Shown piece by piece: positions 1,760-54,756 of a DNA stretch of 64,000 nucleotides. Numbering within the stretch: the first letter of the stretch is position 1; each line of letters starts with the position of its first letter. The translations under genes were made by a program, and so were the position numbers. The stretch comes from Gemmatimonadota bacterium. Its GTDB lineage: Bacteria; Gemmatimonadota; Gemmatimonadetes; Gemmatimonadales; Gemmatimonadaceae. The notes beneath the pieces were generated by a model. The model was not told where the DNA came from. It did no database searches and saw nothing but the letters and a program-made list of their open reading frames with translations. The stretch is from the NCBI GenBank assembly GCA_028287235.1, contig JAQBQB010000020.1, positions 62,001 to 126,000 on the forward strand, read 5' to 3'.

Positions 1760-4044
1760 TGCAACGACTACACAGCGTCGAGCCGCGCCCCGGCGATCCG
1801 GCGATCACGCCGGCGCTCATCGCCGAACACGGGTTGACGGTTGACGAGTTCGATAAGCTCCTCGCCATGCTCGGCCGTGAGCCCACGTTCACCGAGCTCG
1901 GGATCGTCAGCGCGCTCTGGAGCGAGCACTGCTCGTACAAGCATTCGCGTCCTCTGCTCCGTACGCTGCCCACCGATGCGCCGTACGTGCTGCAAGGCCC
2001 CGGCGAGAATGCCGGCGTCATCTCGATCGGCGACGGACTGGCCATCGCGTTCAAGATCGAGTCGCACAACCACCCGTCGGCGGTCGAGCCGTACCAGGGC
2101 GCCGCGACGGGCGTGGGCGGAATTCTGCGCGACGTGTTCACCATGGGCGCGCGGCCCATCGCGATGCTCAACTCGCTCCGCTTCGGATCGCTCGACTCGG
2201 CGCGCGTGCGCTATCTGTTCGCCGGCGTCGTGAAGGGAATTGGCGACTACGGCAACTGCGTCGGCATTCCGACCGTGGCGGGGGAGGTGGCGTTCGATCC
2301 GTCGTACGAGGGGAATCCGCTCGTCAACGCAATGTGCGTCGGGCTGCTGCACGAGAACGAGCTCATTCGCGCCGTCGCGCAGGGCGTCGGCAATCCGATC
2401 ATCGCCGTGGGGGCGCGCACGGGCCGCGACGGGATCAACGGCGCCTCGTTCGCGTCGGAGGATCTCTCCGCGGAGAGCGAGGCCAAGCGGCCGCGCGTGC
2501 AGGTGGGCGATCCGTTCACCGAAAAGCTGCTCCTCGAGGCGAGCCTCGAGCTGATCCGCAGCGGCGCCATCGTCGCCATTCAGGACATGGGCGCGGCCGG
2601 CCTCACGTCGTCGTCGGCCGAGATGGCCGCGCGCGGCGACGTCGGCGTCACGATCGACGTCACGAAGGTGCCGGTGCGCGAAGAAGGAATGACGCCCTAC
2701 GAGATCCTGCTCAGCGAGTCGCAGGAGCGAATGCTCGTCGTCGCCAAGCAGGGGCGCGAGAACGAAGTCACCGCCATTCTCGAGAAGTGGGACCTCACCG
2801 CCGCGGTCATCGGCGAGGTCATCGCCGAGCCGGTGTATCGCGTCACGGAGGGCGATCGTGTCGTAGCTGAGTTCCCCGGAATTCGGCTGGTCACCGATTG
2901 TCCCGTCTACACGCCCGAGGCCTACGAGAGCGCCGAGGTCGTGCGGCTGCGCGCGATCGACGTGAGCCAGGTCGCCGAGCTTCCTGAAGAGCGCGACCCG
3001 CTCTGGACGCTCAAGGAGCTGCTGTCGTCGCCCACGATCGCCGCGAAGACGTGGGTGCACCGCCAGTACGACACCACGGTGCGCACGAACACCGTGATTG
3101 GCCCCGGCGGCGACGCCGCGGTGGTGCGCATTCGCGGCACCGAGCGCGCACTCGCGATGAAGACCGACTGCAACGGGCGCTACGTCTATCTCGACCCGCG
3201 CGTCGGCGCGCAGATCGCCGTGTGCGAGGCGGCGCGCAATGTCGCGTGCACCGGCGGCCGGCCCATGGCCATCACGAACAATCTCAACTTCGGCAACCCG
3301 AAGCGTCCCGAGGTGTACTTCCAGCTGCGCGAAGCGGTACGGGGCATGGGCGAGGCCTGTCGCGCGCTCGGCACGCCGGTCACCGGCGGCAACGTCTCGC
3401 TGTACAACGAGAACCCAACCGGCGCCGTGTATCCCACGCCGGTCGTCGGCATGGTGGGACTCATCGACTCGATCGCGCACATCACGCGCTCGCACTTCCA
3501 GGAGGAGCACGACGTCATCGTTCTTCTCGGCGAGCCGGATCGAAACATTGGCGGCAGCGAGTATCTGTCGCGCATTCACGGAATGGTGGCTGGTCCGCCG
3601 CCCGCCTGCGATCTCGACGGCGAGCGCGCGCTCATCGACGCACTCGTCGAAGCGATTCAAGGCGGGGTCGTTCGCTCGGCGCACGATTGCAGCGACGGCG
3701 GTCTCGCGGTCGCACTCGCCGAGTGCTGCATCATGGACCGCGGCGCCCAACGCGGCGCGACGGTCGACTTGAAGCACTGGCGCGAGCTTCCCGCGCGCGC
3801 GTTGCTGTTCGGCGAAGCGCAGGGTCGCGTGGTGATCTCGACGAACATGCCCGACACCGTGCTCAGCATCGCGAAGAACCATGGCGTGCCGGGACGGATC
3901 ATAGGGCAGGTCGGCGCGCTTGATGCCCCGTTGCACATTACGACAGTGGCGAACGAGCTCTCCGCGCCATTGGCCAAGCTCGACGAAGCGTACCACGAGG
4001 CGATTCCGCGCATCATGTCGCGCGCCGCCGTCGTGTCCCCGTAG
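1759..4044 (+). CDS. purL: FGAM synthase large subunit PurL
   Basis: A protein of 761 residues, the size of the short PurL that works with PurS and PurQ. It is the ATP-dependent synthetase of the complex. Landmarks are [12 protein letters not shown] near residue 55, the ATP/FGAR-binding ESHNHPS at 101-107, GDYGNC(V)GIPTVAGE in the first AIRS-like half, and [16 protein letters not shown] and [14 protein letters not shown] in the second half. The frame is open further upstream. I take ATG 1759 because it overlaps the previous stop and the next residues match the family N-terminus (MQRLHSVEP). Confidence 0.97.
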
Positions 4045-41768: not shown

Positions 41769-41778
41769 ATGGATTGTG

Positions 41779-41895
41779 TCATCCCGAGCGTAGCGACCGG
41801 TGTCATCCCGAGCGTAGCGACCGGTGTCATCCTGAGCGAAGCGAAGGATCGCTCGCAACGGATACCCATCCGTCGTTCGCTTCGCTCAGGCTGAC
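41779..41895 (-). repeat. CATCC-GAGCG repeat cluster (copy 2)
   Basis: Two 22-base tandem units GTGTCATCCCGAGCGTAGCG, then a GTCATCCTGAGCGAAGCGAAG unit reading into GATCG, and an inverted CTTCGCTCAGG unit near 41880. It fills the tsf-pyrH spacer and could form a stem in the transcript. Confidence 0.85.
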
Positions 41896-42559: not shown

Positions 42560-42725
42560 TTTCAGTTTGTCACCCTTTTTGTCATCCTGAGCGTCAGTTT
42601 GTCATCCTGAGCGAAGCGTGTCATCCTGAGCGAAGCGTGTCATCCTGAGCGAAGCGAAGGATCGCTTTCCAAGTGAGCCGATCCTTCGGTCGCTACCGCT
42701 CCCTCAGGATGACACGCTTCGCTCA
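42560..42725 (-). repeat. CATCCTGAGCG repeat cluster (copy 3)
   Basis: Four forward units, the last three in near-perfect tandem with a period of 22 bases (GTCATCCTGAGCGAAGCGT), then GATCG...CGATCC and an inverted CCCTCAGGATGAC. The inverted end pairs with the last forward unit into a long stem-loop. It fills most of the rpsB-tsf spacer. Confidence 0.88.
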
Positions 42726-51710: not shown

Positions 51711-52507
51711 CCGCGGCACTCGTCGAACGTCCGAACGCCGCAACCGATGCGCCGCGCGGGTTGGTGAGCGCGGAGCACTTCTCGTTCTGGTACGGGGAGA
51801 AGCAGGCGTTGTTCGACATCTCGCTCACCGCGGCGCCGAGGAGCGTCACCGCGCTCATTGGCCCGTCGGGTTGCGGCAAGTCGACCTTCCTGCGCTCGAT
51901 CAACCGCATGAACGCGCTGTTGCCCGGCGTCCGCCACGAGGGGGCGATCTGCCTCGACGAGACCGACGTCTACAGCCGCGAGATGGACCCCGTCGCGCTG
52001 CGCCGCCGCGTCGGCATGGTCTTTCAGCGCTGGAATCCCTTTCCCAAGTCGATCTACGACAACGTCGCCTACGGCCCGCGCGTCAACGGCATTCGGAACC
52101 GCGCCGATCTCGACGCGATCGTGGAGTCGGCGTTGCAACGTGCCGCGCTCTGGGAGGAAGTGAAGGACCGCCTGCGTGAGAGCGCGCTGGGATTGTCGGG
52201 CGGACAGCAGCAGCGGCTCTGCATCGCGAGAGCGCTGGCGAACGAGCCCGAGGTGCTGCTGCTCGACGAGCCGGCCAGCGCCCTGGATCCGTTGGCCACG
52301 CAAAAGGTCGAGGAGCTCCTCTATGAGCTCAAGCGCGAGTTGACGATCATCATCGTGACGCACAATCTGCAGCAGGCGGGACGAGTGTCCGACGTCACCG
52401 CATTCTTCTATCTGGGCCAGCTCGTCGAAGTCGGTCCGACCGATCGCATGTTCACGAGCCCGGTCAACGACCGTACCGAGGCATACATCACCGGGAGATT
52501 CGGATGA
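51707..52507 (+). CDS. pstB: Phosphate ABC ATPase PstB, second copy
   Basis: A protein of 266 residues. Walker [12 protein letters not shown]-loop [21 protein letters not shown] (classical PstB form), signature LSGGQQQRL, Walker [13 protein letters not shown] and switch IIVTHNLQQ. It overlaps both neighbours by 4 bases. It shares roughly half its residues with the first copy, so the two are not a recent duplication. They could form a heterodimer or alternate. Confidence 0.95.
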
Positions 52508-53205
52508 CACCCTCCGCGTCCGATACGACCACCGTCGGTTTTCGGCATTTCCACGACCAGCTCGCGCACCTCAAGCAGCGGCTGCTCGACATGTCGGACC
52601 TCGCCACGTCCCTGCTCGATCTTTCCGTGGACGCCCTGTTGAGCCGCGACGTGAACATGGCGGAAGCCGTGGTCACGGGCGACCGCGATCTCGACGCGCT
52701 CGAGCTCGAGGTGGAGGATCAGGCGATCGGCCTCCTCGCTCTCCAGCAGCCGATGGCGCGCGACCTTCGCTTCATCATCGCGGCGATCAAGGTCTCGAAC
52801 GATCTGGAGCGAGTCGGCGACCACGCAGTGAACATCGCCCAGAGCGCGCAGCGCATCGCGCAGTCGAGCACGATCATCACACCGGACCCGGAGATTGGCG
52901 ACATGGCCCGCCGGGCCAGGAAGATGCTGCGCGACAGCCTCACCGCGTTCGTGCGCGCCGACGGCGCGCTGGGCCGCGAGGTCTGCCGCGCCGACGACGA
53001 GGTGGATGCCATGCACAACTCCGTGTTCCGCATCCTCGTGACGCACATGATGGAAGACGCGCGCACCATTACGCCGTCGCTCGAGCTGTTACTCGTGAGC
53101 CGCAACCTGGAGCGCGTGGCCGATCTGGCGACCAACATCGGTGAGGACGCGGTGTTCCTCGCCGAGGGGAAGCAGATCAAGCATCACGCGGAGGACTTGG
53201 GGTAG
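52504..53205 (+). CDS. phoU: Phosphate transport regulator PhoU
   Basis: A protein of 233 residues, all helical with two PhoU repeats. It links Pst activity to the PhoR sensor and limits uptake. Metal-binding motifs E/DxxxD are present in each half ([16 protein letters not shown] and [15 protein letters not shown]). [26 protein letters not shown] and [23 protein letters not shown] are the classic signatures. It is last in the operon. No phoR or phoB lies in the window. Confidence 0.96.
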
Positions 53206-53292
53206 GTACGGGAGTCGGCGACTCGGCGCGGAGCTGGAGCGCGTCGTCGGCACGACCGTCCGAGCCGAGCTCGCATGCGGCCCGACGCGGGT

Positions 53293-54060
53293 GCCGAGCG
53301 AAGTTGGGGCGGTGATGAGAGGACTTGAATCGACGCCGAGCGGACTTTGCTCGCTGCCGAGCGGACTTTACCCGTTGCCGAGGCGACTCTCCACCTCGCC
53401 GAGCTGAGCGTCCCCTTCGGCGAGGCCACCGTCACTGCCACCGAAGGCAATCGTACGAGTGGGCCTCGACGGGCGCCACCAAGCGTGGCTCGAGCGCCAC
53501 CAACGCGTGACGTAGCCGGTTGAGACACCGATGGAACTGCCACCGGCGGCGAGCGGACCGGTCACGTTGGTCGATGTCAGCGCCACCAAGGCGGAGACGA
53601 ACCGGCGCGCGTAGGGAGCCAGGCGCCACCATCGCTGAGTGGAGCGCCACCGCCGCGTAGCTGATCACCACCGGCGTGCAACTGATCCGGCGAGTTGCAC
53701 GACTCAGCGCCACCTCAACGCGACGTCACCGCCACCGACCGATGGCCGACTACCATCAGCGCACGGCCGACCAGGAGCAACGGATGACGTCATCGGGAGC
53801 GTTGCACGATGACATCAGCACCAACGGCGATGTCATCGCCACCGGCGCGCGGACGACTAGCACCATCGCGGAGCGTACCCGTCGCATTGCACGAACCGAC
53901 CGGATGTCGTGCGTGAATGGACCCGACGCATTGCATGCAGCGACCGCCACCAGCGCCGAGTCGACCGGCACCGGCGGCGAACGTATGCCCACCAACCCGG
54001 AGGGCATCCCCACCAACCCGCGTCGCGCGGCCACCATCCAGCGGGGCGGCGCACACGCCG
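53293..54060. repeat. Decayed 21-bp-periodic repeat region
   Basis: Eight 21-base units run head to tail from 53293 to 53460 (for example GCCGAGCGGACTTTGCTCGC T and GCCGAGCGGACTTTACCCGT T at 53335 and 53356). Further on GCCACC recurs at 53475, 53496, 53539, 53582, 53625, 53646, 53709, 53731, 53838, 53946 and 54030, that is, at spacings of 21 or near-multiples of it. No convincing gene spans it. Translations show degenerate heptapeptides on both strands (minus-strand S-A/P-L-V-A type; plus-strand A-T type) broken by stops and shifts. The rest of 53206-54357 holds nothing else I recognise. Confidence 0.75.
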
Positions 54061-54357
54061 GATGGGCGCTTTGCACCGCGCTGCACACCTCTGAGGAGAC
54101 AGCAGACTGCAAATCGCGCATCGCGAACGCTGACCTGCCCCTGACGCCGGAGTTTCAGCCGCTCCGAACTACATTGGACGGCGATCACGTGCCCGGTCGT
54201 TCCCGACGGTAGCACGAAGTTCACCCGTGCTGTGTCTTGCACCGCCGACGAGACTCTGAGAATCAGCGTCAGGTCAGGGGTTTGGCCACCACACTGTCCG
54301 TGCCAGGGTTTGACTTGCGCAAGACACTCGCTCACGTGGTACCTTTCTCCACCTACC

Positions 54358-54756
54358 ATGCACCGCCGCCCTTCCATCCTGCTTCGCGCGACTCGCGCGC
54401 TCACAGCTCTCATCACCGTGTGGTGTCTGGGCTGTACGGGCTATGAGCCGCTGCTCAGCACACTCCTCGGCGAATCGGCCGGCGGAATGATGGCGTGCGG
54501 ATCCGTCATGGGAACGGCGGCGTCGGACGCGGTGTCACCGGCCGGTCACGGAACGAATCAGGCCGCCGTGTCCGATGCAGCGCAGTCGAATCACTCTTTC
54601 GATTGTGGCTGCGGCTCGTGTCACGCCGCCGCCCCGACGCAACCCATCGGTCGGGCGCCGTCCTCACTTCCGCTCGTGCTCGCGCAGCACGAGCCCTCCG
54701 AGCCGGCCAGCCTTTCGCGCGCCCCGCTGATCCCACCGCCTCAAATCGCGGTCTGA
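54358..54756 (+). CDS. Small exported Cys-rich protein of the metal-resistance locus
   Basis: A protein of 132 residues from ATG 54358. A basic N-terminus and hydrophobic helix (ALTALITVWCLGC) suggest export, perhaps as a lipoprotein at the second Cys. The mature part has little order, with one Cys/His cluster (FDCGCGSCHA, residues about 81-89) fit to bind a soft metal. Met- and His-containing stretches (GGMMACGSVMG, PAGHG) add possible ligands. I do not recognise the family. Its place before the efflux genes suggests a metal-binding role. Confidence 0.6.
   Translation: MHRRPSILLRATRALTALITVWCLGCTGYEPLLSTLLGESAGGMMACGSVMGTAASDAVSPAGHGTNQAAVSDAAQSNHSFDCGCGSCHAAAPTQPIGRAPSSLPLVLAQHEPSEPASLSRAPLIPPPQIAV

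Follow-up and report, generated by a model that had tools for sequence, protein, structure and literature searches.

The DNA analysed here (the window) is a 64-kb stretch of contig 26 of a 5.73-Mb Gemmatimonadaceae genome (G000). Within it, phoU ends at 53205 and the next plausible gene, beside an outer-membrane/RND efflux cluster (PF02321, PF00873), begins at 54361. The gene-free gap of 1.15 kb between them (53206-54360), for which no Rfam match was obtained at E up to 1, agrees with the gene-poor character that an earlier sequence-only reading had attributed to the region. The gap contains a 21-bp repeat array of 764 bp (Table 1). Compared with dinucleotide shuffles, lag-21 identity is 0.61 over 53293-53460 (z=9.7) and 0.43 over 53460-54060 (z=7.2), and for the whole gap (z=9.1) the autocorrelation is the strongest 21-periodicity anywhere in the window. 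Two of the checks named in the sequence-only reading, autocorrelation and Tandem Repeats Finder (TRF), bore out the period, the latter calling 21-bp arrays at 53317-53382, 53647-53687, and 53941-53980.

The regularity is less strict than had been described. Units were said to follow each other at exactly 21 bases from 53293 to 53460, and this holds from 53293 to ~53418 only. Beyond this point GCCACC does recur at spacings related to 21 bp, as claimed (53425, 53437, 53475, 53496, 53539, 53582, 53625, 53646, 53709, 53731, 53838, 53946, and 54030), but the steps range from 12 to 108 bp (12, 38, 21, 43, 43, 43, 21, 63, 22, 107, 108, and 84), which indicates that the phase of the array drifts. The array also holds a perfect inverted repeat (CGATGACATC-N12-GATGTCATCG, 53807-53838). 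Elsewhere in the window, tandem repeats of 24 bp (GTGTCATCCCGAGCGTAGCGACCG, 41776-41844) and 19 bp (TGTCATCCTGAGCGAAGCG, 42580-42656) apparently represent a single dispersed TGTCATCC-GAGCG repeat in variant forms.

Table 1. Features of the array locus (window positions).
Feature	Position	Strand	Basis
phoU, flanking gene (context, outside the array)	52504..53205	+	PF01895, E=1.6e-45
Whole 21-bp array, ~36 unit lengths; core GCCACC on +, GGTGGC on -	53293..54056	+	Autocorrelation, motif positions, TRF, alignment to contig-23 copy
Six exactly spaced 21-bp units, mostly of GCCGAGCGGACTT-N8 type, without in-phase CCACC core	53293..53418	+	Sequence, TRF, alignment
13 GCCACC cores with 21-bp-related but drifting spacing	53425..54038	+	Motif positions, phase analysis
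Part best conserved relative to the contig-23 paralogous array, roughly 85% identical, one 22-bp unit indel	53666..54053	+	Alignment
Flanking short ORF with signal-like N-terminus, head of efflux cluster (context)	54361..54756	+	ORF; sub-threshold DUF2946 match, E=0.055

The genome carries four arrays of one unit family, all of them intergenic, on contigs 26 (the window), 23, 16, and 4. The contig-23 copy, found by DNA search, is 76% identical to the window array over 768 columns (75-76%) and shows the GCCGAGCGGACTT-N8 unit variant at the corresponding end. Pattern and profile scans of the genome yielded the contig-16 and contig-4 arrays and nothing further that was convincing. These two have a common 21-bp unit, GGTGGC-NNT-CGNCTCNNCGNT on one strand, in which the same positions are conserved (r=0.68), and the window and contig-23 arrays share its core. 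Unit identity within arrays is about the same as that between arrays (about 0.58-0.64), and stepwise phase drift is seen in the contig-26, contig-16, and contig-4 arrays. A hairpin with a 10-bp stem lies shortly before the contig-4 array (L037, 7661-7700).

The array is not a conserved feature downstream of phoU, a candidate that was dropped, as no 21-bp array follows phoU in the congeners compared. There, ORFs read by eye and without family search are found instead (polyphosphate-kinase-like, histidine-kinase-like, and others), none being an intact repeat gene, so that the original observation stands. Similarly, the three genes beside the contig-16 array are kept in one congener, where the array is absent. 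The window unit pattern did not rise above control in 59 relatives or in 395 genomes of the phylum, and a search of the GTDB collection with its strict form was negative. Three single-site matches of the unit pattern occur in viral contigs. A plasmid or phage origin was discarded: a Variovorax plasmid match is an unrelated glycine-rich gene, and no viral or plasmid relative was found for the array-linked protein described below.

Among the 21-bp patterns in the scan of 395 genomes, two long arrays in genomes G150 and G113 were conspicuous. Several congeneric genomes hold relatives of the G150 array in which the flanks are conserved and the units mostly cannot be aligned, and it is with the conserved flank that a gene for a protein of ~215 aa begins. 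Such arrays, ~0.2-1.2 kb long, lie upstream of and divergent from this gene, the array start being a median of 93 bp (~90 bp) from the gene start. Among 53 distinct genes, the top period was 21 or 42 bp in the upstream kilobase of 40 and in the downstream kilobase of 4. Since some of these loci had been found through their arrays, linkage was retested on 36 genes obtained by protein search, and at a threshold of 0.15 a 21-bp array was present upstream of 28 and downstream of 5 (Wilcoxon p=6e-8). In 242 control kilobases, 15% exceeded 0.15 (about the downstream rate), 0.8% exceeded 0.20, and none exceeded 0.30; most upstream regions of array-linked genes exceed 0.20, and the majority of the linked arrays lie above these two higher levels. 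The protein family is present in 36 of the 395 phylum genomes with up to eight matches each, including four in G000; the arrays at these four genes are weak and clear only on contig 22. The named contigs carrying the family, which were drawn from the narrower family alignment (A3) and not from the diverse one (A4), belong to Gemmatimonadaceae, together with one contig labelled Deltaproteobacteria (L285, WYAZ01000036.1). The latter has both the gene and an upstream 21-bp array, reflecting either misbinning or transfer.

The array-linked protein is modelled as an all-helical bundle, two of whose helices are 54-57 residues long (pLDDT 88, pTM 0.62). Neither alignment of the family (A3, A4) gave a significant Pfam or NCBIfam match, searches of PDB and PHROG gave no match of note, and no viral or plasmid relative was found. 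The same was true for anti-phage defence in PADLOC (best E=0.026, for one member of 37). Structure comparison returned no match above generic long helices, with a best E of 0.55 in Foldseek and a best Z of 9.8 in VIA-align (rmsd 3.1, 179 aligned), the latter a value that long helices commonly give. In genus g23, most elements whose gene is intact terminate in a long hairpin, the stem of which differs by locus while complementarity is kept; hairpins of ~53-79 bp were recorded at the array end of L218, L219, L190, L214-L216, L265, L266, and L276. Stems that are complementary yet different at most loci point to a conserved structure. At L190, L214-L216, L218, L219, L265, and L276, the array-linked gene is followed by a DUF2188 gene (PF09954, 2.3e-13) and, after that, by a short ORF without family assignment. 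As these eight loci are all in genus g23, DUF2188 was rejected as a constant partner.

Unit sequence in the gene-linked class turns over completely between copies with near-identical genes. In genome G112, two copies have genes that are 95.3% identical and heads that are 94.3% identical, and their arrays are 51% identical (shuffled control 48.5%). A single unit motif common to all arrays was rejected as well: the motif obtained is weak and comes mostly from one genus, and the window unit does not match it (p=0.74 and 0.79). Together, these comparisons demonstrate linkage of the arrays to a protein gene, a fixed period, and complete unit turnover. Phase does not drift in L190 and L264 and hardly does so in L242 and L281, although phase changes are also seen in some gene-linked arrays (L218, L262, and L265). 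Several gene-linked arrays of relatives keep a single exact phase over 450-950 bp; against this standard, the window array and two of its sisters drift, and the term decayed used in the sequence-only reading is appropriate. A literature search that covered few subscription journals returned no description of such arrays or of the protein, and array and gene together look like an undescribed DNA-array-plus-protein module. Arrays of 21-22 bp beside helical proteins may also occur in Bacteroidetes.

Two origins had been offered for the window repeat, namely, a dead repeat-protein gene or a phased non-coding array, and the comparison with the contig-23 copy supports the second and not the first. 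Mismatches fall equally on the three codon positions (0.275/0.244/0.240 overall; 19/117, 18/116, and 16/117 where the alignment is reliable), transitions are about as frequent as transversions (102 vs 91), gaps measure 1, 3, 4, and 22 bp, and stops are found in every frame of both copies, including all six frames of the window array, as had been noted. The window array thus has neither the open frame nor the codon-like substitution of a heptapeptide-repeat gene, and it has been non-coding since the duplication, the period that this comparison covers, earlier times being outside its reach. It is highly improbable that the array is what remains of such a gene, e.g., for a left-handed beta-roll or an adhesin-like repeat, and this origin was rejected on the codon-position and frame tests. 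The heptads reported on both strands are real and appear in all frames of the window array, but they are no independent line of evidence, as a 21-bp repeat of any kind yields heptads whichever of the six frames is read. In a relative, L190, the array ORF (2375-3250) varies least at second codon positions and is picked up by PF21300, the profile of the grass antifreeze beta-roll (4.6e-10); a profile match by a simple heptad repeat says little, however, and this one is probably a by-product of the 21-bp period. About half of the 34 gene-linked arrays of at least 300 bp are without an open frame in any of the six, and the G113 array has stops in its heptad frame.

An ordinary decayed minisatellite, produced by slippage, then duplicated and dispersed without any link to a protein and separate from the gene-linked arrays, is an unlikely but more serious alternative. 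It accords with the mismatch between the window units and the motif of the array-linked family, with the lack of a family gene at three of the four array loci in G000, and with congeners that have neither array nor matching unit. Local slippage products would not be expected to show equal unit identity within and between arrays or the same conserved positions on contigs 16 and 4, and the window period is that of the gene-linked class. Moreover, the contig-4 array lies 0.6 kb from the ORF of a diverged family gene (hmmsearch 1.7e-8; hhalign 4.5e-6), an adjacency with an estimated chance probability of roughly 0.5%, although the homology is remote and the array is 3' of the gene rather than on the usual 5' side. 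Very unlikely, too, is a helically phased region that still functions in protein binding and has its core GGTGGC on the minus strand, e.g., a nucleoid or recombination signal. Among units of the contig-16 array the core carries 2.0 bits versus 0.01 for the linkers, and in the reliably aligned part of the contig-26/contig-23 comparison the CCACC core is more conserved than the rest, if weakly so (1/35 mismatches vs 52/315 elsewhere; p=0.04 when defined by contig 26 and 0.06-0.12 by other definitions), so the array could still be under constraint. In the middle stretch, low CCACC mismatch is partly circular, since the copies are probably paired there unit-to-unit out of register. GNTGGTGG, which resembles Chi octamers, is over-represented in the window (23 vs 6.35 expected), but codon use may explain this excess, and the array itself accounts for six of the 23 sites; a Chi-like signal was set aside as an explanation, the excess being only suggestive. 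A binding region is also at odds with the species-restricted unit pattern, the drifted phase, and the lack of a known binding partner.

The window array rather probably represents a dispersed, non-coding type of 21-bp array, of which it would be a solo copy in decay; gene-linked versions of this type occur in the same family and order. We infer its membership of the class from the period, the similar length, the sister array beside a diverged family gene, and the solo arrays of another genus, g23, where L211, L213, and L217 are solo or gene-remnant arrays. It resembles the gene-linked arrays of Gemmatimonadaceae (L190, L218, and L264) in period, in a length within ~0.2-1.2 kb, in being non-coding and dispersed, and in having locus-specific units, and it differs from them in having no gene, no phase lock, and a unit of its own. 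No array-linked family gene lies within 8 kb, the position ~90 bp upstream of such a gene is accordingly not occupied, and the constant phase of the gene-linked class is missing. The stepwise drift makes the window array a probable relic rather than a member.

The class shares features with several known systems. Bacterial minisatellites (VNTR loci) are likewise tandem arrays of degenerate units without a product, whereas in the 21-bp class the period is fixed, a partner gene is present, and units turn over between loci that are nearly identical. In plasmid partition sites and iterons, as here, a small protein gene adjoins phased direct repeats, but the protein there reads a repeat sequence that is conserved; the unit sequence of the 21-bp class is not, and no NTPase or Rep gene was recognised next to its arrays. 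CRISPR and TIGR arrays also combine a repeat array of locus-specific content with a protein gene. The 21-bp arrays, in contrast, lack unique spacers between constant repeats, their units being alike within an array, and their partner gave no PADLOC match of note.

Since the unit sequence turns over while the period and the protein are conserved, DNA geometry or the length of the phased array would be what is read, either by the partner protein or by a complex nucleated at the conserved head by its start codon. Near-identical proteins beside unrelated units make recognition of the period or DNA shape more plausible than recognition of the unit sequence. The geometry in question would be a site on the same helix face every two helical turns, not a fixed sequence. 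A role at the RNA level is also conceivable. Unequal recombination may make the arrays grow and homogenise, and after loss of the gene they would lose phase; the window copy, if a relic, would have no present function. It is conceivable, though still somewhat doubtful, that Gemmatimonadaceae and their order harbour a genetic element of a new kind. In it, a satellite-like array would keep its 21-bp period while its sequence turns over completely, together with a conserved helical protein that reads the periodic geometry rather than the sequence, and the window array would be a derelict copy.

For annotation, these arrays call for caution, as they give rise to spurious heptapeptide ORFs and false beta-roll matches. 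Where a conserved protein is accompanied by repeats that keep their period but not their sequence, the pattern is that of satellite DNA read by its geometry, which would be unusual in bacteria. If this reading is true, gene-free stretches with a 21-bp period in these organisms would be remnants of an array-plus-protein module that is absent from the libraries searched, and not failed genes.
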